Position numbers and translations under genes: made by a program. This document shows, one piece after another, positions 797 through 26,408 of a stretch of DNA of 50,902 nt. Within the stretch, counting starts at the first letter, position 1; every line of letters begins with the position of its first letter. Source of the stretch: a virus; the IMG/VR virus record IMGVR_UViG_3300032087_005175, positions 1-50,902 of that record. One strand, given 5' to 3'. Under the pieces are notes generated by a model that was given only the letters and a program-made list of their open reading frames with translations, searched no databases and was not told where the DNA came from.

Positions 797-825
797 ATTC
801 TACCACAAAAACTTTAGCGTGTCAA
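797..825 (-). promoter_or_regulatory. Sigma70-type promoter for 467-769
   Basis: Read on the minus strand, TTGACA (825-820) and TAGAAT (802-797) are separated by exactly 17 nt. The start codon follows about 28 nt after the -10 box. The -35 box lies inside the last codons of the upstream gene 814-1026, where TTG ACA encodes Leu-Thr just before its stop. Confidence 0.85.
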
Positions 826-2083: not shown

Positions 2084-2088
2084 CCCCC

Positions 2089-3765: not shown

Positions 3766-3781
3766 TTTAATAGTCCTTACA

Positions 3782-3824
3782 TTGACAAAAGGTGTATACT
3801 ATTTAATATAATACGAATTACACC
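3782..3824 (+). promoter_or_regulatory. Divergent control region: promoter, GTGTATA motif, inverted GGTGTA repeat
   Basis: Plus-strand TTGACA (3782-3787) is followed after 19 nt by TATAAT (3807-3812), a usable but stretched sigma70 promoter. Inside the spacer lies GGTGTATA (3791-3798), the motif that recurs before late genes. GGTGTA (3791-3796) is mirrored by TACACC (3819-3824), so the minus strand also reads GGTGTAAT towards the HTH gene. The pair may be an operator, or a phage-type promoter in each direction. Confidence 0.6.
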
Positions 3825-3844
3825 AGTTTTTGCAAGGAGCTATT

Positions 3845-3991
3845 ATGACTAAATCGGTTGATTCCACACTTTGCGTTAAAGCCTGTGCCAATGTTGATGT
3901 AACTCAGGATCTAGAAAAATGTGAAGGAAAATGCGTCAGAGAATTACTAGATGAGCAAAAAGAAAAAGAAAACCAAAAAGAATCTAGCTAA
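3845..3991 (+). CDS. Small Cys4 protein, 48 aa, first gene of the rightward operon
   Basis: The frame begins MTKSVDSTLCVKACANVDVT and ends in a Lys/Glu-rich helix (ELLDEQKEKENQKESS). Cysteines at residues 10, 14, 26 and 30 (C-x3-C-x11-C-x3-C) suggest a paired-helix disulfide or metal site. AAGGAG precedes the ATG by 6 nt, the best ribosome binding site in the area. Its last 41 nt overlap the start of the sigma factor gene in another frame, so translation is probably coupled. No family is recognised. A partner or modulator of the sigma factor is possible but speculative. Confidence 0.7.
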   Translation: MTKSVDSTLCVKACANVDVTQDLEKCEGKCVRELLDEQKEKENQKESS

Positions 3992-4586
3992 CGGAGTAAC
4001 AGAAGAAGAGTTTTTAACCGTTTTAGACAACATAAGCAAACGGCTAGGAAACAAATTCAAATTCGGCTATCATACCTTTGAAGATATGAAGCAGCAAGCT
4101 GCAATATTTGCCCTAGAAGGACTAGAACGATACGACAATAAAAGACCATTAGAAAACTTCCTATGGACCCATGTTCGTAACCGCCTTTTTAATTATAAAC
4201 GAGACAATTATCAAAGGCCCGATAAACCTTGTTTAACCTGCCCCTTTTATGATAAGCACTTTCAAAAAAGCGACAGTCAATGCACTGAGTATAAAGACAT
4301 TAGCGAGTGCTCACTTTACTCATCATGGCTCGAACGAAACTCGGCCAAAAAGAACATAATGAAACCAGTAGGAATAGACAGCCTTAGTTTTAATTTTGCC
4401 AATAAAACAGATGTTGACCAAGAAGTGTCCAACGAACAAATATTTGAAATTATAGAAAGCAACCTGCCCACACAATATCGTGAACTTTATCTTAGATATC
4501 GCTATGGCGACAAAATCAATAAAAACGACCAAAACAAAATTGTAAATATCATACGTAAAATCCTAGAGGAAAATAAAGATGGCTAA
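3951..4586 (+). CDS. Phage RNA polymerase sigma factor-like protein, 211 aa
   Basis: Residues about 38-88 (FGYHTFEDMKQQAAIFALEG, then LENFLWTHVRNRLFNYKRDN) match sigma70 region 2, the part that binds core polymerase and opens the -10 box. A Cys4 segment (C94, C97, C111, C120, beginning DKPCLTCPFYDK) follows and looks like an inserted zinc-binding element. The C-terminus (residues about 160-205) is a helical region that could act like region 4. The size is like T4 gp55-type late sigma factors. It heads the packaging operon and probably redirects host polymerase to late promoters. The N-terminus is a poly-lysine run. The start overlaps the preceding gene. Confidence 0.75.
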   Translation: MSKKKKKTKKNLANGVTEEEFLTVLDNISKRLGNKFKFGYHTFEDMKQQAAIFALEGLERYDNKRPLENFLWTHVRNRLFNYKRDNYQRPDKPCLTCPFYDKHFQKSDSQCTEYKDISECSLYSSWLERNSAKKNIMKPVGIDSLSFNFANKTDVDQEVSNEQIFEIIESNLPTQYRELYLRYRYGDKINKNDQNKIVNIIRKILEENKDG

Positions 4587-5385
4587 AGTCCCCCGTAAAC
4601 GCGGCCAGCTGTCACTAGACGAAGAACAATATATTAAGGAAAATTTCCAAAAGCTTAGTGTTAAAGATATTGCCGCCCACCTAAACCGCACTACTGCACC
4701 AATCAGTAGATTTATCGAAGAAACAAAACTAGATTTTATACAGGACCAAGAAGGTTATGACACCCTACGAACCAAATTACACAGTAAGAATTTCTGGGGC
4801 GAAATTAAAAAACAATTTGATGAGGAAAGTGGGGAATTAGAATACTTTGAGAACACCTGGATTAATTTAGTCAAACAATTTAGGGAGGATGTTTTACCCG
4901 CCGAGGAACTCCAGATCAAACAATTTATAACCATAGACATTCTTATTAACCGCTCTATGAAAGAACGCAAACGCCACATAGCCGATACTGAAAAATTACA
5001 AAAACAAGTTGATAAAGAATACTCTAAGAATGAAGACGAACGAGACATACAAAGATTGACCAATTTAGAAACCCAATTGAGTTTTGCCCGTAATAGTATT
5101 GCCAACTACACAAATGAGTACACTAAGCTGCTGAACGAACAACAAAAGATAAGCAAGGACCTAAAAGCCACTCGTGAACAGCGAATCAAGCGAATTGAGG
5201 ACGGCAAGAGTAGTTGGGTGGGGCTTATACGAATGTTGGAGGATGAAGAACTACGAGAAAAGCAAGGACGAGAAATGGAAATTTTACGTATGGCAACAAA
5301 CAAAGCTCAGAGTACACTTACTGAATATCATACTTATGCAGACAATGCGGTAGACAAACCCTTTTTATTACCAGAAGATGCGTAA
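4579..5385 (+). CDS. HTH/coiled-coil protein, probable terminase small subunit, 268 aa
   Basis: Residues about 8-50 (RGQLSLDEEQYIKENFQKLS then VKDIAAHLNRTTAPISRFIE) form a helix-turn-helix of the kind used to recognise packaging sites. The middle, about residues 125-215, is a long charged coiled coil suited to oligomer formation. The gene lies between the sigma factor and the large terminase and overlaps both neighbours by 8 nt. Small terminases bind phage DNA and start packaging, and a DNA-binding N-terminus plus oligomerising middle fits that. No specific family signature is seen, so an alternative is a transcription regulator. Confidence 0.55.
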   Translation: MAKVPRKRGQLSLDEEQYIKENFQKLSVKDIAAHLNRTTAPISRFIEETKLDFIQDQEGYDTLRTKLHSKNFWGEIKKQFDEESGELEYFENTWINLVKQFREDVLPAEELQIKQFITIDILINRSMKERKRHIADTEKLQKQVDKEYSKNEDERDIQRLTNLETQLSFARNSIANYTNEYTKLLNEQQKISKDLKATREQRIKRIEDGKSSWVGLIRMLEDEELREKQGREMEILRMATNKAQSTLTEYHTYADNAVDKPFLLPEDA

Positions 5386-5641
5386 CTATAAAGACCCACA
5401 ATACAAACTTTGGAGAGATCGAATTAAATGGTTGGACAAATATACGTGCCAATGGCCAGGTTGTAACATGAAGAAAAAATTGCAGGTTCATCATATAAAA
5501 AGATGGAGTGAATTTCCAGGGTTAAGATATCATGAACATAATGGCATTACCTTGTGTAGGCAGCACCATCAATTTATTAAGGACAATGAAGACGCTTATG
5601 CAGAAACCTTTTTTAAGATTGTTAGTAGGAGAAAAACATGA
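5378..5641 (+). CDS. HNH endonuclease, 87 aa
   Basis: The domain fills the whole protein: C24 and C29 (CQWPGC), the HH pair at 38-39 (LQVHHIKRWSEF), N55 (HNGITLC) and C60-x2-H63-H64 (CRQHH). This is a complete beta-beta-alpha-metal HNH site with a structural zinc. HNH proteins encoded beside terminase genes in other phages (for example HK97 gp74) help the terminase cut concatemers, so a packaging role is likely. A free-standing homing nuclease is the alternative. It overlaps both neighbours by a few bases, which favours an integral operon member over an insertion. Confidence 0.85.
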   Translation: MRNYKDPQYKLWRDRIKWLDKYTCQWPGCNMKKKLQVHHIKRWSEFPGLRYHEHNGITLCRQHHQFIKDNEDAYAETFFKIVSRRKT

Positions 5642-6207
5642 TTATCAATAAGAAAGTTAACCTTCACAAATATAGATTAGTTCACCCAAAAACCGGTGAA
5701 GTACATCCAGCTGAAGATATTACGCTTGATCCTATCGAGGTAACATTCCAAGTATTAGATCAGGCCAAGGCTGTATTTGCTGTGTTTAAGGGAGTTCCTA
5801 GACCACTCCCTTTACTCAATGGGCCAGCTTTTGAGCAATTCCAAAAGGATGGTTCGCCAGAAGGCAGGTTAGAAGAAATGGTAACAAAATTTCTAGGTGA
5901 TGATCCACAGGCGGTTCTACAAAGATTAATGCCAAGAACTCTAGATAGCGATCCTGATGGCCCTGGCACTATTCTTTCTGGCATGTTAAGTGCTATGGGC
6001 ATTAACTCCACACCTAATTGTTCGTGTCGCGCTCGTGCTATTCGTATGAATACTGAAGGGCCAGACTGGTGTGAAAATAATCTTCAAACTATTTTAGACT
6101 GGTTGCGTGAAGAGGCAAAGAAAAGAAAGTTACCATTCGTAGAGTCAGGAGCAAAGCTAATGGTGCAAAAGGCTATCTCAAAGTCTAGACGATTATTAGC
6201 AAAATAA
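5638..6207 (+). CDS. Protein with a planctomycete-type Cys module, 189 aa
   Basis: The C-terminal half begins GPGTILSGMLSAMGI (residues about 108-122), then CSC (128-130), RxNxxGPDWC (145) and a helix LDWLREEAKKRKLPF. I recall this GPGTxLxxLL, CxC, GPxWC, WLREEAxKRGLPF layout from many Planctomycetes proteins and their phages, often attached to other domains. The three cysteines may bind a metal with another ligand. The N-terminal 100 residues are an unknown mixed alpha/beta region. Its start overlaps the HNH stop (ATGA). The position between two nucleases and before the large terminase suggests a DNA-processing or packaging role, but function is not known. Confidence 0.65.
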   Translation: MIINKKVNLHKYRLVHPKTGEVHPAEDITLDPIEVTFQVLDQAKAVFAVFKGVPRPLPLLNGPAFEQFQKDGSPEGRLEEMVTKFLGDDPQAVLQRLMPRTLDSDPDGPGTILSGMLSAMGINSTPNCSCRARAIRMNTEGPDWCENNLQTILDWLREEAKKRKLPFVESGAKLMVQKAISKSRRLLAK

Positions 6208-6663
6208 ATGAGCTTACCTACCATCATCATAGATACGAGAGAACAACAACCGTGGCAATTTCCTAATCATACTACGGCTGTTAAGAAATTAGATACAGGT
6301 GACTATTCTCTAGAGGGACTAGAGAATGTACTATGTATTGAAAGAAAGAAAAACACTTCGGAATTTGCTAAGAATATTATTGAGAAAAGATATGATGACT
6401 GGACTATGAGAATGGCCGAGTTCAAACATAAATATTTGTTACTTGAATGTTCTTTAGCAGATGTATATAGGTTTCCTGAGAAATCAGGCATCCCAAAATA
6501 TTTGCTGAGCAAAACCAGAATTAGTTCCAAGTTTTTGATTAAGAAACTACTAGAATTGCAAATACTACATAATATTCATGTGTTGTTTTGCGACTCTTCT
6601 TATACAGCATCAAAGATAGCTGAAGATATTATGTATAGGGTATACAAAAATGAGCAAGAATGA
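6208..6663 (+). CDS. ERCC4-type (XPF/Mus81 family) nuclease, 151 aa
   Basis: The motifs of the ERCC4 nuclease fold appear in order: IIIDTREQ (D9, R11, E12), GDYSL (D32) and CIERKKNTSEF (E45, R46, K47). They form the catalytic (V/E)ERKxxxD-type site, with Ser-Glu replacing the usual terminal Asp. The protein is only the nuclease domain, without the usual helix-hairpin-helix tail. Such phage proteins cut branched DNA. Placed immediately before the large terminase, it may resolve branches in replicating DNA before packaging. It starts right after the TAA of the previous gene, and its end overlaps the terminase start. Confidence 0.85.
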   Translation: MSLPTIIIDTREQQPWQFPNHTTAVKKLDTGDYSLEGLENVLCIERKKNTSEFAKNIIEKRYDDWTMRMAEFKHKYLLLECSLADVYRFPEKSGIPKYLLSKTRISSKFLIKKLLELQILHNIHVLFCDSSYTASKIAEDIMYRVYKNEQE

Positions 6664-8680
6664 TAGTATATTAGATGACGCATGGTTAGGACTAGGCGAT
6701 CTATCTCTTATCGACACGCCTAATAATCCTATGATAGGGCGCAGAAAGTATGACATAGAACATCCTGATTACCATTTGTTAAAAATAATGCGTAACCCTG
6801 ATTATATTGGGACCACAGCTAAGTTATTATTTGGCATAGAGTTGCATCCAATACAAATAGCTATCTTACAAGAATTTTGGGTGCGTCCGTTTCCTATGTT
6901 TATTGCATCTCGTGGTTTCGGTAAATCATTTCTAATGTCTATGTACTGTATCTTAAAATGCGTATTTACACCTGGTACTAAGATTGTTGTCGTAGGTGCC
7001 GCCTTTAGACAGAGTAAGATTATATTCGAATATATGGAAACTATTTGGAGAAATAGTCCAATATTAAGGAGTATTTTCAGTGGCAATGATGACGGTCCTC
7101 GCAGAGACGTTGATCGCTGTACAATGAGATTAGGCGATAGCTGGACTATTGCTATCCCTATGGGTGATGGTTCTAAAATCAGAGGTTTAAGAGCGCATAT
7201 TATTATTGCTGATGAGTTTGCATCCATATCACCAGATATTTACGAGACTGTTGTAGCAGGCTTTGCTGCAGTGAGTGCTAGCCCTATACAAAACGTAAAA
7301 GAAGAAGCCAAAAAACAAGCGATGAAAGATTTGGGTATATGGAATGAGGAACTAGAAAGCCTAACCAAGAAGATGGGTAACCAGGCTATTATTTCTGGTA
7401 CAGCTGATTACGCATTTAAACACTTTGCTCAATACTGGAAAAGATATAGAGCTATTGTAGAAAGCAAAGGAGATCCTAATAAACTAGAAGATATATTTGG
7501 TGCTGAAGTACCTGATAATTTTAACTGGAAAGACTACAGCGTTATCAGAGTGCCATATGAATTAATACCAAAAGGCTTTATGGATGATAAGCAAGTATCT
7601 AGAGCTAAAGCCACCATTCATACCGGTATATACAATATGGAATATGCCGCAGTATTCGTAGAGGATAGTGAAGGGTTTTTCAGAAGAAGTCTTGTAGAAA
7701 GTTGTGTTGTTAATGACAACAAACCAATTAAGCACTTAGATGAGACTATTGTATTTGATGCAGTTACAAGAGGTAATCCAAAGGCAAAATACGTCTATGG
7801 CATAGATCCTGCTTCAGAACAAGACAATTTCAGTATTGTGGTTTTAGAGCTACACCCAACACATAATAGAGTAGTATATGTATGGACAACCAATAGGAAA
7901 AATTTTAAAGAAAGACAAAAGCGAGGTCTGATTTCTGAACACGATTTTTATGGTTTCTGCGCCAGGAAGATCAGAGATCTAATGAAGATATTTCCTTGTG
8001 AGAGAATTGGTCTTGATGCTCAGGGTGGTGGTATAGCAATCGAGGAAGCTTTACACGATCCGGTTAGACTACAACCAGGCGAACATTTAATATGGCCTAT
8101 TATTGATTATGACACGAAGAAGTCCAAAGATACTGATGCCCAGCCAGGTTTACATATTCTGGAACTAGTTCAATTTGCCAAAGCTGAATGGACAGCTCAA
8201 GCTAATCACGGCCTACGTAAAGATATGGAAGACAAAAAACTATTGTTTCCTCGTTTTGATAATTTCTCCTTAGGTTTAGCAATGGAGAAAGAACAGAAAA
8301 ATATTGCAGAAGATGACCTTAATCCTCTTTACGATAGCCTCAGTGAGTGCATACTAGAAATAGAAGAACTTAAAGATGAGCTTACCACTATTGTTATGAC
8401 TCAAACTAGTACCAGTGCTGGAGCTAGAGATCGATGGGATACTCCAGAAGTAAAACTAAGTGGTGGCAAAAAGGGCAGACTACGCAAAGATAGATATAGC
8501 TCTCTTATTATAGCGAATATGCTTGCTAGACAAATGACTAATGTTATAGCTCCTATTAATTATGAGGTAGTTGGAGGTAATGCGAGTAACGTTGGAAAAA
8601 CCACCGGAGACATGTATAAAGGCCCAGACTGGTTCACTAGTGCAGCCAACGACGATATTTATACGGGAATTTACAGATAA
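6650..8680 (+). CDS. terL: Terminase large subunit (packaging ATPase and nuclease), 676 aa
   Basis: The ATPase domain holds Walker A S87-RGFGKS and Walker B IIIADE (184-189), with IRGLRAH before it. The nuclease domain (RNase H fold) has D386 (YVYGIDPASEQDNFS), D456 (ERIGLDAQGGG) and D562 (NPLYDSLSE), the expected acidic triad. The motor pumps DNA into the prohead through the portal and cuts it. The length is somewhat larger than the common 450-600 residues, with an insert between Walker B and the nuclease (about residues 205-245). The start overlaps the end of the ERCC4 gene by 14 nt. It is the last gene of the packaging operon. Confidence 0.95.
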   Translation: MSKNDSILDDAWLGLGDLSLIDTPNNPMIGRRKYDIEHPDYHLLKIMRNPDYIGTTAKLLFGIELHPIQIAILQEFWVRPFPMFIASRGFGKSFLMSMYCILKCVFTPGTKIVVVGAAFRQSKIIFEYMETIWRNSPILRSIFSGNDDGPRRDVDRCTMRLGDSWTIAIPMGDGSKIRGLRAHIIIADEFASISPDIYETVVAGFAAVSASPIQNVKEEAKKQAMKDLGIWNEELESLTKKMGNQAIISGTADYAFKHFAQYWKRYRAIVESKGDPNKLEDIFGAEVPDNFNWKDYSVIRVPYELIPKGFMDDKQVSRAKATIHTGIYNMEYAAVFVEDSEGFFRRSLVESCVVNDNKPIKHLDETIVFDAVTRGNPKAKYVYGIDPASEQDNFSIVVLELHPTHNRVVYVWTTNRKNFKERQKRGLISEHDFYGFCARKIRDLMKIFPCERIGLDAQGGGIAIEEALHDPVRLQPGEHLIWPIIDYDTKKSKDTDAQPGLHILELVQFAKAEWTAQANHGLRKDMEDKKLLFPRFDNFSLGLAMEKEQKNIAEDDLNPLYDSLSECILEIEELKDELTTIVMTQTSTSAGARDRWDTPEVKLSGGKKGRLRKDRYSSLIIANMLARQMTNVIAPINYEVVGGNASNVGKTTGDMYKGPDWFTSAANDDIYTGIYR

Positions 8681-8681
8681 T

Positions 8682-8726
8682 AGTGTATAAACCTTGTAAT
8701 TCCATTGCAATCCTATTATAATAGAA
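8682..8726 (+). promoter_or_regulatory. AGTGTATAA motif and a sigma70-like promoter before the portal gene
   Basis: AGTGTATAA (8682-8690) is a copy of the recurrent late-gene motif. Directly after it, TTGTAA (8694-8699) and a perfect TATAAT (8717-8722) are separated by 17 nt. Only AGAACT lies between TATAAT and the ATG at 8729, so a transcript from this promoter would be nearly or fully leaderless. No Shine-Dalgarno sequence is visible. Confidence 0.6.
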
Positions 8727-8728
8727 CT

Positions 8729-10927
8729 ATGACAAAAAAATATCCCAAAAGTGACGCTATCAAAGACGCAGAGCCCTACATACCAGAAGAAGCCTACATA
8801 TTGTGGGGAGACGATTCAGCGTCCAAAGAAGCCGCACAAAAAGCATCAGCAGGAGCTTTAGATGAATACACAGCTGTTGGCAGCAAAACTGTTGCTCATT
8901 CTAGATATCGTACCGATTTCTCTAATCTGGATACTAATACCTCTGGTCGCCCAGGTTTAACTAGATCAGATTACGACTTTTTTCGACCTGATGAAGCTGT
9001 GCCAAAGCGTGTTAAAAATATCATGCTTAAGGCTGAAGATATTTATCAGCGCGTTGGATTGGTGAAAAATGTTATTGATCTAATGGGTGATTTTGCCACA
9101 CAAGGTATTCGTATAGTACATCGAAATAAAAAAGTCGAAAGATTTTATCAGAGATGGTTTCAAAAGATTGGCGGCAAAGATCGTAGTGAAAGATTTGTAA
9201 ATAATCTTTATAAGACTGGGAATGTAATTGTTAACAGACAAATTGGAAAGATCTCTAAGAAAGTTGAACAAAATATGTACAAGGCACTATCAGCTAGTAA
9301 TGCTGATTTTGTTGTAGTGCCAGAACCAGCTGTAGCTAAAAAAGAAATCCCTTGGAAATACACTTTTATCAATCCTGTTTATGTAGATGTAGCAGCAGGC
9401 TCGTTAGCTTCTTTTGTAACAGATAAAAGATACGAGCTTGTTCTACCAGCGAGCTTACGCAAAACAATAAACTCACCGAAAAACGAGGCAGAGGTACAGA
9501 TCATCTCGCAGTTGCCAGATGCTATTATAGAGGCAGCTAAAAGCAAAAAGAAATACCCTCTTGACCCGAGTAAGACATTGGTTTTTCATTACAAGAAAGA
9601 CGATTGGCAAAGTTGGGCATATCCTATGATATATGCAATTATGGATGACATAACAGTTATTGAAAAGTTGAAACTTGCAGATATGTCAGCTTTGGATGGA
9701 GCTATTTCCAATATTAGAATTTTCAAGTTAGGTAATTTGGAGCATAAGATAGCACCAACTAGAGCTGCAACATCTAAATTGGCTCAGATTCTCGGTAATA
9801 ATGTTGGTGGTGGAACGATGGATTTAGTTTGGGGTCCCGACATAGAATTACTAGAAAGTAAGACTAATGTGCATCAATTCTTGGGCGAAGCTAAGTACAT
9901 TCCTCACTTAAACGCAGTGTATGCAGGATTAGGAATTCCGCCAACATTAACCGGGACATTTGGTGCAGCAGGCACGACTAATAATTTTATTAGCTTAAAA
10001 ACACTAACCCAAAGATTGCAGTATGGTCGTGATGTATTAGTTAGCTTCTGGGAAAAAGAAATTGAATTAGTACAAAAGGCTATGGGTTTTACATATCCAG
10101 CAAAGATCGAATTTGACCGTATGGACCTCAGTAATGAAGAAGCAGAAAAATCATTACTTATTCAGTTGGCAGATAGAAATATCGTGAGCGACGAAATGAT
10201 CAGATCTAGATTTGGATTTGATCCAGATATGGAAAAGACCAGGGTAAACAAAGAACATCGTGACCATAAGAAGATTAATAATCCGCCAAAGGTTGGCCCA
10301 TATCACGATGGTAATTTTGAAAATAATATTAAGAAAATTGGTCTACAGATGGGTATGTTAACACCTAGTGAAGTTGGCGTTGAATTGATGGAGAAAGATC
10401 CAAAACAGAAAAATTTGATGCAGTTAAAAAATCAATATGAAGCCAAGAAAGAAACCAAGGCTCCACAAGACTCTAAACCGCCAGGACAATCTGGTGAAGG
10501 ACGTCCGATGAATTCTAAGGATACCGAAAAAAGAAAAGAAAAAGAATTTGCTCCACAAACTGGCGCTAGTTTATCTATCTGGGCTACAAAAGCACAGGAA
10601 TTAATTTCAGAAATTGTTAACCCCATAATGTTAGACTTTTACTCCAAGAAAAACCTAAGAAGTTTATCCAACACAGAATCTGCAGAATTAGAAGAAATCA
10701 AAGCTAAGATACTATTTAACATTAAACCATATTCAACTATTGATTCTGATAGCATAGAAACCATTTTGGCTACTATTAATAGCAAGGCGAACTGCGAACT
10801 TATGCATCACTATAAAAAGTGGCAAAAATCTATTCAAGAAGATTTGTCTTATGCTATGTCTCTAGATGAGCAGAAGCAAGCTAAGGCATCTTTTTATTCT
10901 ATGGTGTATACAATCCTACATCAATAA
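8729..10927 (+). CDS. Portal protein, 732 aa
   Basis: The start MTKKYPKSDAIKDAEPYIPE is chosen over an upstream in-frame TTG. The body has typical portal features: a helix-rich core with GLVKNVIDLMGDFATQGIRI, a dodecamer-type stem region near FHYKKDDWQSWAYPMIYAIM and a conserved GIPPTLTGTFGAAGTTNNF segment before long helices. The last 230 residues are charged helices with a Lys/Gln/Pro-rich linker (KETKAPQDSKPPGQSGEGRP), probably a barrel or crown extension. The gene follows the large terminase, as usual. It forms the ring at one vertex through which DNA enters. The role is secure from order and sequence, but no exact family can be named. Confidence 0.88.
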   Translation: MTKKYPKSDAIKDAEPYIPEEAYILWGDDSASKEAAQKASAGALDEYTAVGSKTVAHSRYRTDFSNLDTNTSGRPGLTRSDYDFFRPDEAVPKRVKNIMLKAEDIYQRVGLVKNVIDLMGDFATQGIRIVHRNKKVERFYQRWFQKIGGKDRSERFVNNLYKTGNVIVNRQIGKISKKVEQNMYKALSASNADFVVVPEPAVAKKEIPWKYTFINPVYVDVAAGSLASFVTDKRYELVLPASLRKTINSPKNEAEVQIISQLPDAIIEAAKSKKKYPLDPSKTLVFHYKKDDWQSWAYPMIYAIMDDITVIEKLKLADMSALDGAISNIRIFKLGNLEHKIAPTRAATSKLAQILGNNVGGGTMDLVWGPDIELLESKTNVHQFLGEAKYIPHLNAVYAGLGIPPTLTGTFGAAGTTNNFISLKTLTQRLQYGRDVLVSFWEKEIELVQKAMGFTYPAKIEFDRMDLSNEEAEKSLLIQLADRNIVSDEMIRSRFGFDPDMEKTRVNKEHRDHKKINNPPKVGPYHDGNFENNIKKIGLQMGMLTPSEVGVELMEKDPKQKNLMQLKNQYEAKKETKAPQDSKPPGQSGEGRPMNSKDTEKRKEKEFAPQTGASLSIWATKAQELISEIVNPIMLDFYSKKNLRSLSNTESAELEEIKAKILFNIKPYSTIDSDSIETILATINSKANCELMHHYKKWQKSIQEDLSYAMSLDEQKQAKASFYSMVYTILHQ
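10902..10910 (+). promoter_or_regulatory. TGGTGTATA motif before the protease gene
   Basis: This copy of the recurrent motif lies inside the last codons of the portal gene, 28 nt before the ATG at 10939. Its placement in coding sequence makes it less certain than the intergenic copies. Confidence 0.45.
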
Positions 10928-10938
10928 AAGGGTAAAAT

Positions 10939-12468: not shown

Positions 12469-12494
12469 TTTAATTTAGTATAGGGAGAAAAAAC

Positions 12495-12953
12495 ATGGCT
12501 CTTAAACCAGATCGTATAGAATCTCAAACAGATATCTCTTTCTTTATGAATGCTGTCGCTGAGCGCGGTGGTGTTGTATCGGTTCTTACCGGTGGATCCG
12601 GAGTTGCAATGGATGACGGTAATGCTGTTGTTGAATATGCAAGTACCGCTTCCGGTTCTTTACCAGTCGGTTTGCTTCTTAATGATGTTCAGAATTATGA
12701 CCTCACTAAGCAGCATATCAACTGGCACAAAGATGAAGTGCAAGTTGGTTCGAAAGTCACTGTCTTGCGTCAAGGTCAAGTGACTACCGACGTTATTGCT
12801 ACAGGTGTTAATCCATCTGCTGGTCAAGCTGCCTATCTCGCTGATGGCGGTGAACTTAGTAGTAGTCAATGTGCTGGCTGTCCACAAGTTGGTCAGTGGC
12901 TGAGTGGCAAAGACGCCGATGGTTTCGCCAAAGTATCTATCAACATAACTTGA
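12495..12953 (+). CDS. Probable head decoration protein, 152 aa
   Basis: The small beta- and Gly-rich protein (VVSVLTGGSGVAMDDGNAVV and GSKVTVLRQGQVTTDVIATG) lies directly before the major capsid gene, where lambda gpD-like or cement proteins usually sit. VGLLLNDVQNYDLTK and VGSKVTVLRQGQ recall DUF2190-like capsid decoration folds. It probably binds the capsid surface and stabilises it after expansion. GGGAG precedes the start. Codon choice (CGT, GTT, GGT) resembles the major capsid gene, consistent with high expression. Confidence 0.7.
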   Translation: MALKPDRIESQTDISFFMNAVAERGGVVSVLTGGSGVAMDDGNAVVEYASTASGSLPVGLLLNDVQNYDLTKQHINWHKDEVQVGSKVTVLRQGQVTTDVIATGVNPSAGQAAYLADGGELSSSQCAGCPQVGQWLSGKDADGFAKVSINIT

Positions 12954-12981
12954 ATTTAATAACAAAGAGGGAGAATAAATT

Positions 12982-13998: not shown

Positions 13999-14023
13999 TA
14001 GCTCTCAACTGTTATTGCTTTAT

Positions 14024-14054
14024 AAGGGCTGGCCTAAAAACCAGCCCTTTTTTT
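14024..14054 (+). terminator. Strong intrinsic terminator after the capsid gene
   Basis: AAGGGCTGG and CCAGCCCTT form a perfect 9-bp stem around an 8-nt loop and run into seven T residues. This separates the head operon from the fibre operon. Confidence 0.95.
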
Positions 14055-14062
14055 ATGATATA

Positions 14063-14070
14063 GGTGTATC
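14063..14070 (+). promoter_or_regulatory. GGTGTATC motif, candidate phage promoter for the fibre operon
   Basis: The motif lies just after the terminator and 30 nt before the ATG at 14101. Because the terminator should stop upstream transcripts, a promoter is needed here, and no sigma70 -35/-10 pair is evident. Confidence 0.6.
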
Positions 14071-14100
14071 TAACAGTATACATCGCGCACGAGGTACCAT

Positions 14101-14864: not shown

Positions 14865-14876
14865 TAGGAGCTTAAA

Positions 14877-16118: not shown

Positions 16119-16128
16119 GGAAGTTTAG

Positions 16129-16698
16129 ATGCCGAGGAATAACGAAATACAGTTTCGTAGAGGAACTGTAACAGAATGGAACACCATTGATCCTATACTA
16201 GCCAGTGGTGAACCTGCATTTAATTTAACAAACTATAGCCTAAAAATAGGTGACGGTGAAAAGGAATGGTCTTTATTGCCAGAAATTGGCGGTACTGACA
16301 TATATCTTTCTGGAGTTTCTTTTGACAATAATACTAGAAATTTAACATTTACTTGGAATTCCACACTATCAGACTTAACGGTTAATATTCCTGGTGGTAG
16401 TGGCGGCACGACAGGAAACACCTTAGCTTACCAAAATATCAACACAAATACCACACTTTCCTATAATGACCATTTGATATTCGTTGATACCAGCTCTAAT
16501 AGTGTAGATATTCAGCTACCATTAGCATCTGGCTATGGAGGTACACAATTTATTTTAAAGCAAAAAACTGGGAATAATCCTATTAATATATTACCTAGCG
16601 GCAATGAAACCATAGATGATCAGTCACAATATCAAATATTTTATAGTAAGAATTCAATCAGTGTAGTTTCCGATAATAGTAATTGGTATATTGTTTAG
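16129..16698 (+). CDS. Short fibre protein with the same head module, 189 aa
   Basis: The start MPRNNEIQFRRGTVTEWNTI, DPILASGEPAFNLTNYSLKI and GDGEKEW repeat the head module of the preceding protein, so the two are paralogues. The C-terminus (LPLASGYGGTQFILKQKTGN then VSDNSNWYIV) resembles that of the next gene (LPTAASGLMTVVKKVDAAEG then VSDSTDWYVI), suggesting a shared C-terminal beta domain. It is probably a fibre or adhesin tip subunit. AGGAAG precedes the start. Confidence 0.75.
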   Translation: MPRNNEIQFRRGTVTEWNTIDPILASGEPAFNLTNYSLKIGDGEKEWSLLPEIGGTDIYLSGVSFDNNTRNLTFTWNSTLSDLTVNIPGGSGGTTGNTLAYQNINTNTTLSYNDHLIFVDTSSNSVDIQLPLASGYGGTQFILKQKTGNNPINILPSGNETIDDQSQYQIFYSKNSISVVSDNSNWYIV

Positions 16699-16705
16699 TG
16701 TATAA
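16696..16705 (+). promoter_or_regulatory. TAGTGTATAA motif before 16751
   Basis: A copy of the recurrent late-gene motif overlaps the stop codon of the preceding gene and lies 45 nt before the ATG at 16751. An A-run and GGGG ribosome binding site follow. Confidence 0.55.
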
Positions 16706-16750
16706 AATACTAAGCTTAAGCTTTATTTTGCAAAAAAAAAGGGGTAAATT

Positions 16751-17353: not shown

Positions 17354-17382
17354 TAAATTAATTTAGGAAATTTTAGGAACGT

Positions 17383-20300: not shown

Positions 20301-21660
20301 CGCTAATCATTACACAACTGGGAATGGCACGAATTATTCTTGGGGTCAAACCACAGATATCAGAAAACATGTAGCAAGCGGTGTTACTGATACTGGATAT
20401 GTGATGGGTACTGACTTTATAGCAGTTTTATCAGACGAAGGTTCTTTAGGCAGTTCATTTGGCTTAAGAACTTATGCTGGTATTAATAACCAGAGTGATA
20501 ACGGAACGCTTACCGCAGCATATGGAATTCAGTCTAGAGTTATTAATTTTGGGCAAGGTACGGCCAATATTAACACAGCCCGTGGTATTGATGTTTATAT
20601 ACAGGGCGATCTTGGCAATGCTGGAAATGGGAAAATAACAACCGCCTACGGCTTATATGTTAATCCTCTTTATAATGTAACAACAATCTCTTACGGTTTG
20701 TATATTGCCCCTATGGTTAACACCACAACTAACAGGTACGGAGTTTATCAAAACGGATCTAATGATACTAATGTTTTTATGGGAAATGTTGGGATTGGGA
20801 CAAACGATCCTTCTTCTCCGCTCACAGTTGCCGCATCTAATGAAGAAGGCATAAGAATACATACCGACAGCGCACCGTCTCAAAATTTTATAATAGGTAG
20901 AAATACTTCGAATGGAACTCTTGTATTCAAAGGTTCTCAAAGCGACTTTAGTGCTTATGAGTTTAGATCAACAATTGGCGGGTCTTCACAAACTGTTTTA
21001 CAAACAGATAGACTAACTGGAGCCATTACATTCAATGATGAGTTTACTTTCCCAACCACAGACGGCTCTGGTAATCAAGCTATAATTACCGATGGTAATG
21101 GAAATCTTTCATGGCAGAGTGTATTGCTTGATAATGACCTAAATGCTAGCATGGAAGCTGGTGATGGTATTACCTTAGTATATGATAGCGGCACTTCTAT
21201 CCTAGCTATTGGTTTGAATCCTACGGGCGTTTTTGATAGCCTTAGTATTAATAATGAATTTACTTTCCCAACAACAGATGGTTCTGCTGATCAAGTGCTT
21301 GTAACAAATGGAAGCGGTGTTATTACTTGGCAAAATCAATCGGTAGGAGCTGCTTCTGCTACAGCTTGGGGAAGTTACAACGGCAGTACCAACGCTAGAA
21401 ATCAGGAATATAATGTTAGTAGCATAACAGATAATGGAGGTGCTGGCCAACATACCATCAATCTTTCTATTACAATGAGTAGTACTGATTATTGTGTTGT
21501 GGCTAATGAATATCATCAGCTTAACTGGACTTTTGGTACTAGCGCAACCATTGCTACTAGGAGTACAACTAGTTTCCAAATTTGGACCGGAGGCATAAAT
21601 GGAACAACAAATAGTGAGTTTGATTCTCCATATGTAGCATACGCCGTGTTCGGTAGTTAG
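17383..21660 (+). CDS. Large tail fibre / adhesin, 1425 aa
   Basis: A long beta-rich shaft carries repeated modules. FTFPT(V/T)DG with a following GNxSW occurs near residues 245, 1221 and 1294. VGIGT-x-x-P-x-x-KL modules (VGIGTASPATKLHIES, VGIGTATPQAKLDVNG, VGIGTNDPSSPLTVA) are widespread in fibres of aquatic phages. The last ~100 residues (SYNGSTNARNQEYNVSSITD, NEYHQLNWTFGTSATIATRS, VAYAVFGS) look like a globular tip and are a candidate receptor-binding domain. No S74-type autoproteolytic chaperone end is present. Two small genes follow that resemble fibre-assembly genes. AGGAACGT precedes the start. Confidence 0.82.
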   Translation: MVYAITLQTSDSGIDPGEKIGIIGFAASNDDSGSDAITIAASIYAEAETEFTAASNKTAIVFALSSSGNNDISEKVRITSDGYLGINNNLPLYALDVNGSGNFSGSVTATSLIKSGGTSSQFLKADGSVDGSTYAKSAGSAYHVAWFQGTGGGNDITYYGSDTKDNIYVSTDIYFQSKYGMRFLTDTNFISGTERLHLDTSEAVFNDGGNNYDFRVEGDTDSDLLFVDANLDIVQIGKLNINGAFTFPTVDGSSGQSLVTDGAGNVSWSGVSGGGTDTNDYVDSISFNTSDGVLTLGRTGALSDLTVDLDGRYLEAHPSTSPASSSDNSGRTYIQDILLDSYGHVTGIATATETVTDTTYTDGSGLSLVGTTFHANVDSTTQSVAPNSVSSTASRTYAVQVDSSDKLVVNVPWVDTDTNISLSGNLVGDLNLNNYDIVGTGNITIDGNITAEYFYGDLDGVVVTECRNGTASTISEGTPVYVSGYYSANGKPLIAEANASSSSTMPAIGLLASDLASGAEGHVHVFGLAQNLPSGVTNGFSVGETVYVAAGGGLTNVRPTGVSELVQNMGRVLKTGTNGRILVLGPGRSNDVPNSGHFEQLTVDEASNFLSTIYAPNIGAGEDNSVVVLDSDGKLRTDEIDSRVWGSSLVDGNGTANYLPKWSDTDTLTNSVIYDNGTNVGIGTASPATKLHIESPTDVSYGNLFIHDTTSMAAGVGGSICFGGKYTTAGATARLGVIKAEKENSTDGNSLSSLVFMTNDQAGTFVEERMRITSDGKVGIGTATPQAKLDVNGVALFGTTAGSNTVYYAAGQGLDLVKSTDSTDGLHFGDKAYLISSAYQGIKHLGMTGSGDYMMMSEGLHTLISAKATTGSVWIRGGGNYSANQIKVYPSIMPNGASVEIDGTNTSEIVVNQLGNNVDFRVEGDSDTHLLFADASSDRAGIGTNAPNGKLGVYHTLTKNTTGPSYEHGIHNSANHYTTGNGTNYSWGQTTDIRKHVASGVTDTGYVMGTDFIAVLSDEGSLGSSFGLRTYAGINNQSDNGTLTAAYGIQSRVINFGQGTANINTARGIDVYIQGDLGNAGNGKITTAYGLYVNPLYNVTTISYGLYIAPMVNTTTNRYGVYQNGSNDTNVFMGNVGIGTNDPSSPLTVAASNEEGIRIHTDSAPSQNFIIGRNTSNGTLVFKGSQSDFSAYEFRSTIGGSSQTVLQTDRLTGAITFNDEFTFPTTDGSGNQAIITDGNGNLSWQSVLLDNDLNASMEAGDGITLVYDSGTSILAIGLNPTGVFDSLSINNEFTFPTTDGSADQVLVTNGSGVITWQNQSVGAASATAWGSYNGSTNARNQEYNVSSITDNGGAGQHTINLSITMSSTDYCVVANEYHQLNWTFGTSATIATRSTTSFQIWTGGINGTTNSEFDSPYVAYAVFGS

Positions 21661-21668
21661 GAGTCAAA

Positions 21669-21908
21669 ATGAAAAAGATTATATATCCAGAAAATGAAAC
21701 AATAGCCATAGTTCATCCGTCTTTAAGTTGTCCACTTACTGTAGAGCAAATAGCTCAAAAAGATGTCCCAAGCGGAGTACCGTATTTAATAATAGAAGAA
21801 GAACTATTACCAGAAGACAGAACATTTCGATATGCTTGGACGGCAGATTTTTCAAATCCAGACGGCTATGGTATAGGCGCAGAAGAATGGTTTAGGAGGA
21901 ATCCATGA
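21669..21908 (+). CDS. Small fibre-associated protein, 79 aa
   Basis: The protein runs MKKIIYPENETIAIVHPSLS, IAQKDVPSGVPYLIIEEELL and PEDRTFRYAWTADFSNPDG. I recall this KDVPxGxPYxIV and DRTFRxAW pattern from small proteins next to fibre genes in many phages. A role in fibre folding or attachment is likely, like Tfa-type assembly proteins, but this is inferred from location. GGAG precedes the start and the stop overlaps the next start. Confidence 0.65.
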   Translation: MKKIIYPENETIAIVHPSLSCPLTVEQIAQKDVPSGVPYLIIEEELLPEDRTFRYAWTADFSNPDGYGIGAEEWFRRNP

Positions 21909-22165
21909 TAAGTATTGATATGAAAAAAGCCAGAGACATATGGAGAGACAACTTGCGATTGGAAAGATCGCCAGTTCTAGAGTCATTAGATCTAGAGTTC
22001 ATTAGAGCTTTAGAGTCTGGAAATACTGAGCAGCAAGAAAAAATAAAAAAACAAAAACAAGACTTGAGGGATGTTCCAGCAGATCCCCGAATAGAAAAAG
22101 CGCAAACAGCAGAAGATTTAAAACAACTTAAGCTAGTAGATGAAATAATTACCATTATCAAATAA
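21905..22165 (+). CDS. Small helical protein, fibre-associated, 86 aa
   Basis: The protein opens MISIDMKKARDIWRDNLRLE. A helical, charged remainder (LESGNTEQQEKIKKQKQDLR, DVPADPRIEKAQTAEDLKQL) follows. This K-A-x-x-(I/W)-x-R-x-x-LR and LRDxPxDP pattern resembles the C-terminal part of phage fibre-assembly and tail proteins. It overlaps the preceding gene by 4 nt (ATGA) and has AGGAGG directly upstream, so it is translated in coupling with it. The two may act as one split assembly factor. Confidence 0.65.
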   Translation: MISIDMKKARDIWRDNLRLERSPVLESLDLEFIRALESGNTEQQEKIKKQKQDLRDVPADPRIEKAQTAEDLKQLKLVDEIITIIK

Positions 22166-22175
22166 GGAGAATATT

Positions 22176-22493
22176 ATGGCAGATTTACCAATTTTAGATG
22201 CAGTTAATCCAGAAGTGATTCCTGCTAAAACTTACGACAGGGTGTGGATCGAAGAGGTCGTTATTCGCGCCCCTGACCCAAACGGCGACATCTTGGGTGA
22301 GGTCAAGCTTCGCAAATATGGTATTTTTGACGGCATTGCTGAATTTGAACCCGGAAACGGACAGTGGATTCGCGTAGAAAACATGCTACAAAAAGCTGAT
22401 ACAGACGCTACTCTCCAGACAGCCATGACGGCCCTAATCGGCTATGTTATGCAAGTTGGCGTTGAGAATAATGTTATCACACCACCACAATAA
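22176..22493 (+). CDS. Hypothetical virion-module protein, 105 aa
   Basis: The sequence (MADLPILDAVNPEVIPAKTY, DRVWIEEVVIRAPDPNGDIL) suggests a small beta-rich protein with a helical C-terminus (QTAMTALIGYVMQVGVE). Codons are visibly more GC-rich than in the flanking genes (many C-ending codons, CGC for Arg), which hints at recent transfer or special expression. A good AAGGAG site precedes the start. It could be a minor capsid or fibre component. No family is recognised. Confidence 0.65.
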   Translation: MADLPILDAVNPEVIPAKTYDRVWIEEVVIRAPDPNGDILGEVKLRKYGIFDGIAEFEPGNGQWIRVENMLQKADTDATLQTAMTALIGYVMQVGVENNVITPPQ

Positions 22494-22511
22494 ACAATCT
22501 AAGGAGATAAT

Positions 22512-23042
22512 ATGACGAACTATTTCCCACCAGAGCCAGATGGCAATCAAATTTATACCGCAGAATCTGGCACTGTTGTTAAGGTAAGAAAAGAAGGATC
22601 AAATTACAAAATTGCCAAACTTCCAAAACCCACAACTGGAAATATCGCTTTAACAGCAACTCCGAATGGTTCCATTGGTTACAGCATAAATTATGAATAC
22701 AGTGATACTACACGATTAAGGAATGACACAACACAGCCTGACTTATCTGAGGTATTACCAGCTCTTAATCCAACATTAGAAATATATAATACAGATATAT
22801 TCAGTATTAAAGTCAATTTAGAAAATACTACCAATAGTTCTTTTCCATTAACTATATCCAGCAATTCGATTTACCCATTAAGTGGTATCGCTGTTGGCTC
22901 ATTATTTAACAATAGCGCAACATCAGGAGAATATGTTAAGTGGTATCCTGGCGTTGATGCTTCTGGTACATTTTATTATGTATTTTCTGACTCACCTCAA
23001 TTTACTATGGGTGGCACAATCACAGTAATACCTGCACCATAA
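22512..23042 (+). CDS. Hypothetical virion-module protein, 176 aa
   Basis: The Asn/Thr/Pro-rich beta sequence (PEPDGNQIYTAESGTVVKVR, SIGYSINYEYSDTTRLRNDT, KWYPGVDASGTFYYVFSDSP) looks like a surface or adhesin-type protein with one or two beta sandwiches. It ends the accessory block between fibres and neck proteins. AAGGAG precedes the start. The stop is followed directly by the TGGTGTAT motif. No family is recognised. Confidence 0.6.
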   Translation: MTNYFPPEPDGNQIYTAESGTVVKVRKEGSNYKIAKLPKPTTGNIALTATPNGSIGYSINYEYSDTTRLRNDTTQPDLSEVLPALNPTLEIYNTDIFSIKVNLENTTNSSFPLTISSNSIYPLSGIAVGSLFNNSATSGEYVKWYPGVDASGTFYYVFSDSPQFTMGGTITVIPAP

Positions 23043-23050
23043 TGGTGTAT
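23043..23050 (+). promoter_or_regulatory. TGGTGTAT motif before the neck/tail operon
   Basis: The motif lies right after the stop of 22512-23042 and 44 nt before the ATG at 23095. It would drive the neck gene cluster. Confidence 0.55.
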
Positions 23051-23094
23051 TTAATAATATTAGCAATTTTAACCTTTTAAAGATGGAATAAATT

Positions 23095-23616
23095 ATGTCC
23101 TGGATACTAGAAATTCCTATAATTGTACGCACTTGGATTAACGACTTATCCGACAATCCTACATATAGTGATGACCGACTCCAGCAAGTTATCATTGTGG
23201 CTGGTCAGTATGTAACTAGAGAAATTAATCTAGACACAAAATATACTTGTGATGTTATTAATCTAACTATTACTCCTGATCCTTCATTAAGCAAAACTCG
23301 TGATGAAGCCTTTATTAGTTTTGTGGCATTAAAATCAGCATGTATTCTTGACCAGAGTACTTTCAGAACTAAAGCAGCTTCTGAAGGAGTTAGGGCAGGA
23401 TTGGGTTCTGCTAATATTTCTGTGGCTGGTAATTTAAAAGGCTATAAAGACATACTAGACACAGGCCCTTGTAAAATGTACGAAAAGCTTCGTATGGAAT
23501 ATGAGATTGGTAATGCTAACGGTATTAAGGCTGTTCTTAGTCCCTTCGTGGGCAATAACTTTGATGCTAGATATATTAATAGAGAGTACGCAAGATATAG
23601 AGACTTTTATTCATGA
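23095..23616 (+). CDS. Head-tail connector / neck protein, 173 aa
   Basis: The helical protein opens MSWILEIPIIVRTWINDLSD and includes SDDRLQQVIIVAGQYVTREI, then GLGSANISVAGNLKGYKDIL and a conserved-looking end, NGIKAVLSPFV. This layout (helical start, RLxxxIxxAxxYV, tail helix) matches gp6-like adaptor proteins that sit under the portal. It begins the neck block and overlaps the next gene by 4 nt. Assignment is by position and fold impression. Confidence 0.6.
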   Translation: MSWILEIPIIVRTWINDLSDNPTYSDDRLQQVIIVAGQYVTREINLDTKYTCDVINLTITPDPSLSKTRDEAFISFVALKSACILDQSTFRTKAASEGVRAGLGSANISVAGNLKGYKDILDTGPCKMYEKLRMEYEIGNANGIKAVLSPFVGNNFDARYINREYARYRDFYS

Positions 23617-24812
23617 TAGATTATAGCTCTTTAAAATCTATTTATAATGACGCAATAGACGGATTACTATCTGCTAATGGACTAACTGTTCCGTGTTCTA
23701 TCGTATATGAAGATCCTAATGGTGAAGATTGCCCTAATTGTGTAGTTAATCCTATTACTGGCAGATCTAGTTTTGCACACACCGATCCTGCTGAAACCAT
23801 AACCATAATATCAAGCGGTAGCGGAATTCCTAGTAAAAGCTTGACAGATATCTATGTTTTGTATATGAGCGAAAATTCTAATTTGGTTGCTAATATAGAT
23901 ACGGCATATAGCTCTTTTAGGTCTTCGTTTCCAGATGTTTTAATGTTTGTTTTAGATATGGCCGTGCCTTCTGGTGAAATTGAAATACAATATCCTGTCG
24001 GATTTGCTACTGATGATAAATGCTTTTCTAGCCGATTAGATCTATCTACATATATTTATCGTGATAGTGGCAATGCTTCTTTAGCTACAGATTCATACCA
24101 ACTTTTATTAAATATGATTAATGATCCTGGAGTTCCTTCTGATGTTGTTAATTTATTCGATAATGCTAATAGCGTCCTAGTAGCTTTTGACGCTAGCAGC
24201 AGCGCTAATGCCCCCAATTCCATCCAGGCTACTGCTGATAATCTTATTACAGACTTAGAAAATAATGGCATAACAACGAGAACTGTATCCGTATACCAAG
24301 AAGAACTTTTTTGTCCATACATAGCAAATTCTTGTATTGACACTAATGATCCTTTAATTTCTGGTTTTTATACCTCCTGCACACAAAATGTTGGCTGGCC
24401 ATTAGGTGGTTGGCTTTGCACAGATACAGAACCTCCCACTGAAACCATTACGGTTACCCAGCCACCCTATGCAACTTCTGGTAATTTGGTTTGGTTCCCA
24501 GAAGGCTCAATATGTCCGATTTGTAATGGTCAGGGCGTTTTAAGCAAAACCTCAACCGAAACGCAAAATCTTGCAGTTATTTTTGACTCCAAAAAGTTTA
24601 TCAACTTTGGTAATGTCAATGTGCCTGTAGGAGATATACAAATCATATGTCCAATTACCCTATATCCGCAGCTTGCCTCAGCTAGTTATATTACTGTAGA
24701 TACCAACATCAGTTCATATGCACAGCACAAATATACTCGGATATCAGATCCGCAACCTGTTGGTTTGGGTGATAATCGTTATATATTCAGCAATTGGGAA
24801 AGAAGCTCATAA
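23613..24812 (+). CDS. Neck / head-closure type protein with two Cys-pair modules, 399 aa
   Basis: Two Cys modules frame the protein: CPNC (40-43) followed by PITGRSSF, and CPIC (301-304) followed by NGQGVLSKTST. The C-terminal module (FPEGSICPICNGQGVL) is a pattern I recall from neck proteins of aquatic phages. Between them, residues about 78-240 form an inserted alpha/beta region containing VLVAFDASSSANAPNSI, where DASSS (193-197) resembles the MIDAS of von Willebrand A domains. A metal-binding neck protein with an inserted domain is likely. The exact role (stopper or completion) is inferred. It overlaps both neighbours. Confidence 0.6.
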   Translation: MIDYSSLKSIYNDAIDGLLSANGLTVPCSIVYEDPNGEDCPNCVVNPITGRSSFAHTDPAETITIISSGSGIPSKSLTDIYVLYMSENSNLVANIDTAYSSFRSSFPDVLMFVLDMAVPSGEIEIQYPVGFATDDKCFSSRLDLSTYIYRDSGNASLATDSYQLLLNMINDPGVPSDVVNLFDNANSVLVAFDASSSANAPNSIQATADNLITDLENNGITTRTVSVYQEELFCPYIANSCIDTNDPLISGFYTSCTQNVGWPLGGWLCTDTEPPTETITVTQPPYATSGNLVWFPEGSICPICNGQGVLSKTSTETQNLAVIFDSKKFINFGNVNVPVGDIQIICPITLYPQLASASYITVDTNISSYAQHKYTRISDPQPVGLGDNRYIFSNWERSS

Positions 24813-25447
24813 TGCGTTTTACTACTAAGCTTTTGGAATCAGATAGCGAGATTGCAAGCCTTATTTTAAAATCTATATTAGGTGATGCAAAAAATTACTT
24901 CAGAAAACTTGGACCTAAATTACAACCTGAAATTCAACGTATAGTTAAAACAGCAATTACAAACAGCTTAGAATATCAATCTATTGTTTCTGGTAAATTA
25001 CGACAACATTTTGGACTTCCTGATGGATCATCTAGACTATCTCAAATAATGGCCCTATGGGAAAGAATACAGGTAGAAACAAAACCTCCTAAAATTAAAG
25101 GCAGTCAAATTGGTGCATCTATAGAAATAGTAATGATCAAGGCTGACTATTCAGATGTGCTCAATTTACCAGCAAGTGTTTTGGTTACTGAAACAGGAGA
25201 GCAGCTAGAGTGGTTAAATTGGCTACTTCTTGCTGGAGACAAAACTATTATACGAGATTATGAAATCGTGATTGGCCCAAGCAAATATTCTCGTACAGGT
25301 GATGCAATAATGAAAAAGAAAGTTTCTGGAAAATGGAAAGTACCTTCTGAGTTTTCTGGAACCTCTAAGAGTAATTGGATTACTCGTGTATTAGATAGTG
25401 TGAGTTCTGATATTGATAATGCTATAGAAAAAGCGGTTAAACTATGA
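24812..25447 (+). CDS. Tail completion / neck protein, 211 aa
   Basis: The start MRFTTKLLESDSEIASLILK is used because its ATG overlaps the TAA of the previous gene. An upstream TTG would add six residues with no support. The protein is helical at first and ends with SKYSRTGDAIM, KWKVPSEFSGTSKSNWITR and a last helix. The RTGxxIM and NWITRxL motifs are familiar from minor tail and HK97 gp10-like completion proteins. It likely joins the neck to the tail tube. Confidence 0.6.
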   Translation: MRFTTKLLESDSEIASLILKSILGDAKNYFRKLGPKLQPEIQRIVKTAITNSLEYQSIVSGKLRQHFGLPDGSSRLSQIMALWERIQVETKPPKIKGSQIGASIEIVMIKADYSDVLNLPASVLVTETGEQLEWLNWLLLAGDKTIIRDYEIVIGPSKYSRTGDAIMKKKVSGKWKVPSEFSGTSKSNWITRVLDSVSSDIDNAIEKAVKL

Positions 25448-26391
25448 ATACATTTTATGGTGTTAAAAAAGTTGGTCAAAATTTTCTGATCAATCAACTT
25501 GAAATCAATATGAAGTCATTTCTGGAATGGGGCTTTTTGAATGCTGGTGGGTTCGTAAATGTGCATAGATCCATCCAGAACGTCCATGCAAACAGCTTAT
25601 TTAAATTATACCCTATAGAGGACCCTAATTTTAATAACGGCCAAATATGGCAAACAGCGCATAAAGGATGGGTATACGAAAGCGGGATTGTTAATGATGG
25701 TGTATCTCCCATACCTATTAGTGGTATTTATATTGGTAATGATTTTTACGATACCAATACCACAGGAGACTATCAATATAGTGTTGACTATAAAAATAGC
25801 AGAATTATTTTCAACAAAAAATTATCTACCAGATCTAATATCACCATGAGTCATAGCTATAAATGGGTACAGATCTACAACTATACTGATGCTAAATGGT
25901 GGCAGCAACTACAATATAATACAGATAGCAATTCCACACATCTAAATCAAACAGACAAGGGAGACTTCCACCTATCTGCTAAAAATAGAGTACAATTACC
26001 TGCTATTATAATAGAAACTGTAGCAAGAGGTACTGCTGATCCTTTCCAACTAGGAGATAAATCACTGAGAATTACTCAAGATTTCCTTTTTCATATTGTG
26101 GCAGATAATTACGACGACCGCAATAACCTGATAGATATACTAAGATTGCAGGAAGATAAAGTATTAACCTTTTACGATGTAGATAAAGTGGTTAAAAACC
26201 AAATTCACCCGATTAATTATGATGGCACATTAAATCCAAATAGAGTTAATTATGATCTTATAGTTGGAGATTCTTCATACACTTGGCGCACTTGCAGATT
26301 AAAAGACATGATAGTTTCAGAGGTCCAATCTGTAAATTCTGAACTTTATGAGGCGAACATCAGGACTTCTGCTGAAATTATAATAGTTTAA
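25444..26391 (+). CDS. Tail / baseplate-type structural protein, 315 aa
   Basis: The protein starts MNTFYGVKKVGQNFLINQLE. The N-terminal part has mostly beta segments (YQYSVDYKNSRIIFNKKLST, NITMSHSYKWVQIYNYTDAK). The second half includes AIIIETVARGTADPFQLGDK, DDRNNLIDILRLQEDKVLTF and a C-terminal beta region. A segment like this (residue-rich DxRNxLIDxL near a long beta sandwich) occurs in proteins that terminate or adapt tail tubes. It lies just before the tail tube genes and overlaps the previous gene. Function is inferred from order. Confidence 0.55.
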   Translation: MNTFYGVKKVGQNFLINQLEINMKSFLEWGFLNAGGFVNVHRSIQNVHANSLFKLYPIEDPNFNNGQIWQTAHKGWVYESGIVNDGVSPIPISGIYIGNDFYDTNTTGDYQYSVDYKNSRIIFNKKLSTRSNITMSHSYKWVQIYNYTDAKWWQQLQYNTDSNSTHLNQTDKGDFHLSAKNRVQLPAIIIETVARGTADPFQLGDKSLRITQDFLFHIVADNYDDRNNLIDILRLQEDKVLTFYDVDKVVKNQIHPINYDGTLNPNRVNYDLIVGDSSYTWRTCRLKDMIVSEVQSVNSELYEANIRTSAEIIIV

Positions 26392-26397
26392 AAAAAA

Positions 26398-26408
26398 TGG
26401 TGTATAAT
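26398..26408 (+). promoter_or_regulatory. TGGTGTATAAT motif before the tail tube genes
   Basis: The motif follows an A8 run and lies 39 nt before the ATG at 26448. A perfect TATAAT is included in it, but no matching -35 box is seen. This suits a promoter recognised mainly through its -10 region. Confidence 0.6.

Follow-up and report, generated by a model that had tools for sequence, protein, structure and literature searches.

Recurrent copies of a short motif, GGTGTAT, precede the late genes of an uncultivated phage, which raises the question of whether the motif is a promoter and what reads it. The phage is represented by IMG/VR record IMGVR_UViG_3300032087_005175, whose entire 50,902 bases were analysed (hereafter the window) and which is a piece of a larger phage. 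On the plus strand, the genes for a sigma factor (3951), a helix-turn-helix (HTH) protein (4579), an HNH-like protein (5378), an ERCC4 nuclease (6208), the large terminase (TerL, 6650), the portal (8729), a 509-aa protein (10939), the cement protein (12495) and the major capsid protein (MCP, 12982) are followed by fibre, tail and large virion genes up to the window end. Small minus-strand genes occupy the leftmost 3 kb, and strong host-type promoters precede several of these genes. No Rfam families or tRNAs were found in the window. A megablast search of the first half of the window against 50,697 phage records revealed no close isolate by DNA, and TerL has about 26% identity at best with that of isolated phages. 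The group is uncultivated and very common, with hundreds of contigs and with records of up to about 230 kb. Clues to the host from genome contigs are weak and come from two contigs only, VFHP01000009.1 and NZWA01000009.1, which were binned into metagenome-assembled genomes (MAGs) labelled SAR202 and Flavobacteriales, and mis-binning is possible.

The features of the window to which the analysis refers are the following.

797..825, minus strand: early host-type promoter TTGACA-17-TAGAAT; further ones at 1251-1223, 1535-1507, 2083-2055 and 2330-2301
3782..3809, plus strand: host sigma-70-type promoter TTGACA-16-TAATAT, predicted to drive the sigma operon
3791..3798, plus strand: candidate late-promoter motif GGTGTATA, in the gap 3766-3844, within the spacer of the sigma operon's host-type promoter
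3845..3961, plus strand: ORF of 38 aa that opens the sigma operon, with a similar ORF in 14 relatives
3951..4586, plus strand: phage sigma factor with sigma-70 region 2, a Cys-rich insertion and a short region-4.1-like tail
4579..5385, plus strand: HTH protein, weakly similar to the T5 transcription regulator D5 (E=0.001), 70-82% conserved in relatives
8682..8690, plus strand: candidate late-promoter motif AGTGTATAA, preceding the portal gene (ATG 8729)
10903..10910, plus strand: candidate late-promoter motif GGTGTATA, within the final portal codons, 5' of gene 10939
14024..14054, plus strand: intrinsic terminator, 3' of the major capsid gene
14063..14070, plus strand: candidate late-promoter motif GGTGTATC, preceding gene 14101
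16697..16705, plus strand: candidate late-promoter motif AGTGTATAA, preceding gene 16751
23044..23051, plus strand: candidate late-promoter motif GGTGTATT, preceding gene 23095; 10 loci, the window among them, have the motif before this gene
26399..26407, plus strand: candidate late-promoter motif GGTGTATAA, preceding the tail gene 26448

All seven copies listed in the first-pass annotation are present, two of them one base away from the positions given there (10903 and 23044 instead of 10902 and 23043). Counted from the first G of GTGTAT, and with the portal start taken as ATG 8729, they lie 35-53 nt from a start codon, and six of the seven plus-strand gaps longer than 40 nt hold the motif, as had been described, the exception being 30547-30622. 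The copy near 10903 had been called intergenic, which is incorrect: it lies within the final codons of the portal ORF, and the gap there (10928-10938) measures 11 nt. The reported intragenic copies are real, at positions that read 25699, 28792, 30087 and 49351 (25700, 30085 and 49350 were off), and further copies were found at 3071, 3129, 9916, 21118, 28911 and 50506; many copies of the motif fall within genes. RGTGTATA occurs 8 times in the window against an expected mean of 4.4, and 8 of 100 shuffles reach 8, so that its abundance is not significant, and the string count in the window was rejected as evidence because it is near the chance level. Within about 465 nt of gap, plus-strand [AG]GTGTAT was observed 6 times, against about 0.16 expected by chance from the plus-strand density; the Poisson value for this placement, about 2e-8, is only a guide because the gaps had been chosen in the first-pass annotation. 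The motif-free gap 30547-30622 contains a terminator-like hairpin immediately 5' of the tape-measure gene, which may set read-through into that gene. The AGTGTAT copies at 3071 and 3129 (plus strand) lie in the early region inside repeated TTTCGATTCTAGTGTAT, and no obvious plus-strand gene follows them.

A terminase scan yielded 80 relatives with 74-88% identity (clade A; 58 contigs after dereplication), and the motif search in relatives that had been proposed earlier gave an overwhelming enrichment in late gaps. In the 80 relatives, RGTGTATA occurs 95 times on the forward (late) strand versus 7 times on the reverse strand, and 75 of about 104 forward copies sit 32-63 nt upstream of a start. 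A search of all hexamers, with the motif not preselected, ranked GTGTAT first in the zone from -70 to -25 before late-strand genes, where it was found 127 times versus 5.3 expected in the 58 dereplicated contigs, with 4 occurrences on the reverse strand. Orthologous gaps were also read without selection for the motif, a random 80-nt stretch holding [AG]GTGTA[TC] 2% of the time. GTGTA was present in the TerL-portal gap of 58/58 clade A contigs and in 36/36 MCP-downstream gaps (30/30 MCP-g14101 and 6/6 MCP-g23095), and 43 of 50 relatives carried the motif at the 3' end of the portal gene. Two large relatives, with records of 200 and 231 kb, carry the motif before genes 15 and 19 times, versus 2.2 and 2.5 expected, respectively; reversed or scrambled control motifs reached at most about 2.4 times the expectation in the same two records. 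The genes marked in this way encode portal, tail fibre or spike and baseplate-like proteins, and also PhoH-like, protease and HNH proteins, so the motif is not exclusive to virion genes. Using the terminase of a MAG contig (52% identity), we collected a second group of 80 contigs, 60 of them after dereplication (clade B, 52-56% TerL identity), in which GTGTA was found at the end of the terminase gene or just past it in 60/60. The TerL-portal gaps of Bacillus phage Stahl and Microcystis phage MaeS do not contain GTGTA.

The information at the sites is limited to [AG]GTGTA[TC] and the AT-rich DNA downstream. The lack of a -35 box, noticed earlier for most copies in the window, holds generally, as none of 131 sites has 5/6 matches to TTGACA at 15-19 bp when TATNNN is taken as the hexamer; with GTGTAT as the hexamer, a -35 was found in 2/131, which is not above shifted controls. 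These phages do possess host sigma-70 promoters (TTGACA-17-TATAAT), both on the early strand and upstream of the sigma operon. Unlike such promoters, the late sites have neither TTGACA nor a conserved final T of TATAAT, and a host sigma-70 or extended -10 promoter was rejected for these sites. The position of the motif directly after a terminator, first noted downstream of the major capsid gene, recurs in 21 of 31 MCP-downstream gaps, where an intrinsic terminator ends 6-50 nt upstream. Immediately downstream of a terminator, transcription has to be initiated anew.

The sigma factor encoded at 3951-4586, absent from the earlier account, was found here as a conserved phage gene. The window protein alone matches sigma-70 region 2 weakly, and searches with its sequence alone gave nothing useful against the PDB and, by tblastn, no match. 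With the alignment of the family, Sigma70_r2 and TIGR02937 were matched in 41/41 cases each, mostly below the curated cut-offs, and profile A3, which includes clade B, retrieved sigma-B of S. aureus from the PDB at 1.3e-4. The T4 gp55 profile was matched with E values of 0.0023 (A1) and 1.7e-5 (A3, probability 79%), the A3 match spanning the initial portion of region 2. The best Foldseek matches of the predicted structure (pTM 0.45) are nearly all sigma factors, with E-values above 0.02. In our own reading of the alignment and the model, the tail resembles region 4.1 and has no obvious recognition helix; a sigma factor without a recognisable -35-reading helix-turn-helix fits promoters without a -35. 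Among clade A contigs that reach far enough, 55 of 56 carry the gene, as do 24 of 29 in clade B. A single sigma-70 region-2 gene was found in 13 of 14 large records, and two in the remaining one. Motif and sigma gene co-occur in every relative, which leaves no contrast between relatives with and without either one. The clade A proteins share an invariant four-cysteine insertion (C94, C97, C111 and C120 in the window), possibly a zinc site, which is lacking in clade B.

The best reading of the data, and one that we consider likely, is that GGTGTAT is a -10-only late promoter read by the host RNA polymerase together with the phage sigma factor. The motif, approximately [A/G]GTGTA[T/C] with AT-rich DNA after it, would form the entire late-promoter core in a large family of uncultivated giant phages and would act in vivo late in infection. 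The host's core RNA polymerase, with the phage sigma bound, would read GTGTAT as a -10-type element, whose TAT is taken as positions -12 to -10. The AT-rich DNA right behind would then be opened, and transcription would start about 11 nt past the A, so that leaders would measure about 20-40 nt. As for a phage-encoded RNA polymerase, single-subunit or multisubunit, no PF00562 was detected in 14 records with a positive control, though phage RNA polymerases can be too diverged for this family; PF00940 was not found either, though its control also gave no match.

We infer the pairing of sigma and motif from their co-occurrence and from the shared lack of a -35-reading part and a -35. The late promoter might instead be read by a host alternative sigma factor or by another phage protein, with the product of 3951-4586 doing something else. 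The link between this sigma and the motif consists of co-occurrence and fold, and the adjoining gene at 4579-5385 encodes another conserved DNA-binding protein, the HTH protein (70-82% identity, similar to D5 at E=0.001), which may be an alternative regulator or the small terminase. Such a reader is nonetheless unlikely, considering that 13 of 14 large relatives have no sigma-70 region-2 gene besides the one of the 3951-4586 type, that the part missing from the sigma matches the element missing from the promoters, and that the motif is kept across many contigs with probably different hosts.

The leaders of the sigma operon at 41 dereplicated loci contain a host sigma-70-like promoter in 34 cases. 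GTGTA is nested in this promoter, 4-5 nt past TTGAC, at 21 of the 41 loci, as in the window (TTGACA at 3782, GGTGTATA at 3791), and was not found in 11 of the 41 leaders. This arrangement suggests a host-driven start of the sigma operon by sigma-70, after which GTGTA in the promoter spacer, present in about half of the relatives, may allow self-activation. Promoters of the type TTGAC-16..18-TATAAT number 138 on the early strand versus 6 on the late strand; host-type promoters thus appear to occupy one strand and GTGTAT promoters the other.

The nested motif at the sigma operon resembles T4 middle promoters (MotA box plus -10), in which a short phage-specific motif lies upstream. GTGTAT could accordingly be an activator or repressor site at which a phage DNA-binding protein acts on the host sigma-70 polymerase, a reading favoured by the fixed spot of GTGTA in the host-type promoter spacer and by the enrichment of a weak TATA, 13 nt downstream from where the motif begins, in MCP-downstream sites (13 of 41). 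However, unlike T4 middle promoters, the late sites have no -10 at the right spacing: they lack a -35 as well as a TATAAT at usable spacing, and the TATA falls where transcription is predicted to start and is seldom seen in the remaining classes of site, which makes this reading quite improbable. A bipartite promoter GTGTAT-7-TATA was also rejected, since the TATA is only weakly enriched outside the MCP-downstream sites.

At the portal end, where the motif encodes ...Met-Val-Tyr, the Val codon is GTG in 41/41 cases, compared with 7.3% of Val codons elsewhere in the portal gene. The residue before this Val varies (Met, Thr, Ser, Leu, Ala), yet the third base of its codon is invariably G, which creates GGTGTA. 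In clade B, the terminase has a terminal Val-Tyr whose Val is encoded by GTG in 36 of 40 cases; where another codon is used, the motif is placed after the stop. GTG is thus fixed despite a varying neighbour residue, indicating selection on the DNA that protein constraint does not explain, and this codon test at the portal end and the clade B TerL end rules out coding constraint. The near-chance raw count in the window and the site class within coding sequence might suggest that GTGTAT acts in the RNA or in translation, reflects a constraint on the encoded protein, or arose by chance. These readings are very hard to reconcile with its variable distance to the start, its occurrence both before and inside stop regions, the GTG codons fixed with varying residues, the strand bias and the enrichment; a chance string is refuted.

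The proposed promoter, read by host polymerase with the phage sigma, is closest to T4 late transcription among known systems. T4 late promoters have the consensus TATAAATA, a -10-only core, and depend on gp55, gp33 and gp45 (PMC2988020, PMC7892883), and the cyanophage late-promoter consensus is NATATAATA (PMC3184105). The likeness to T4 late promoters drawn in the first-pass annotation was borne out in its logic, namely in the strand, the orthologous gaps in two clades, the missing -35 and the presence of a sigma factor, but not in the consensus. Shared with T4 are a 6-8 bp -10-only core without a -35, AT-rich DNA downstream, a short phage sigma-70 region-2 protein and the late virion genes served. 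The core here is [AG]GTGTA[TC], unlike that of T4 or the cyanophages, and TATAAATA occurs in the relatives 95 times forward and 118 times reverse, with no late-strand bias; with GGTGTAT as the consensus, the motif is no T4 late promoter in the strict sense. Unlike gp55, the sigma here has a Cys-rich insertion (clade A) and a region-4.1-like tail, and its gene heads the packaging operon. A further, possible difference from T4 is that neither a bacterial-type clamp (no PF02767 in 14 records, good control) nor a gp45-like clamp (no PF09116, weak control) was detected. Homologues of gp33 are hard to recognise from sequence. Because the T4 consensus and a clamp-based activator were not found, we describe the system as working like T4 late transcription, with a different consensus and different components, and do not file it as a member. 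Tentatively, the sigma lineage may be only remotely related to gp55 or independently derived, reading a -10-type GTGTAT without a -35 and without a clamp-gp33 activator, and activating itself through the nested GTGTA. Judged by TerL (24-26% identity), the nearest isolates are Bacillus phage Stahl and Microcystis phage MaeS, of which Stahl has its own sigma gene. No earlier description of GTGTAT late promoters was found in the literature searched.

The motif would supply a regulatory code for a very common uncultivated phage group without a close isolate, making late operons legible from the sequence. It also illustrates how a putative promoter can slide between coding and non-coding sequence with its DNA letters fixed, and raises the question of whether late transcription outside the T4 group needs the replication clamp.

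Two other kinds of repeated element were observed. Between the motif and the portal start (8690-8728), an AAT-CC-AATTA-like element is repeated at a spacing of about 11 bp, and a similar repeat follows the TerL stop in clade B, e.g., CAATCCAATTACAATCCAATT; its possible roles are those of operator, leader element or packaging site. In addition, positions 1-3600 of the window contain at least 13 scattered small G/C hairpin elements of the form CCCCC-N4-5-GGGG, e.g., CAACCCCCCATAGGTGGGGA, sited among and within the small minus-strand genes.
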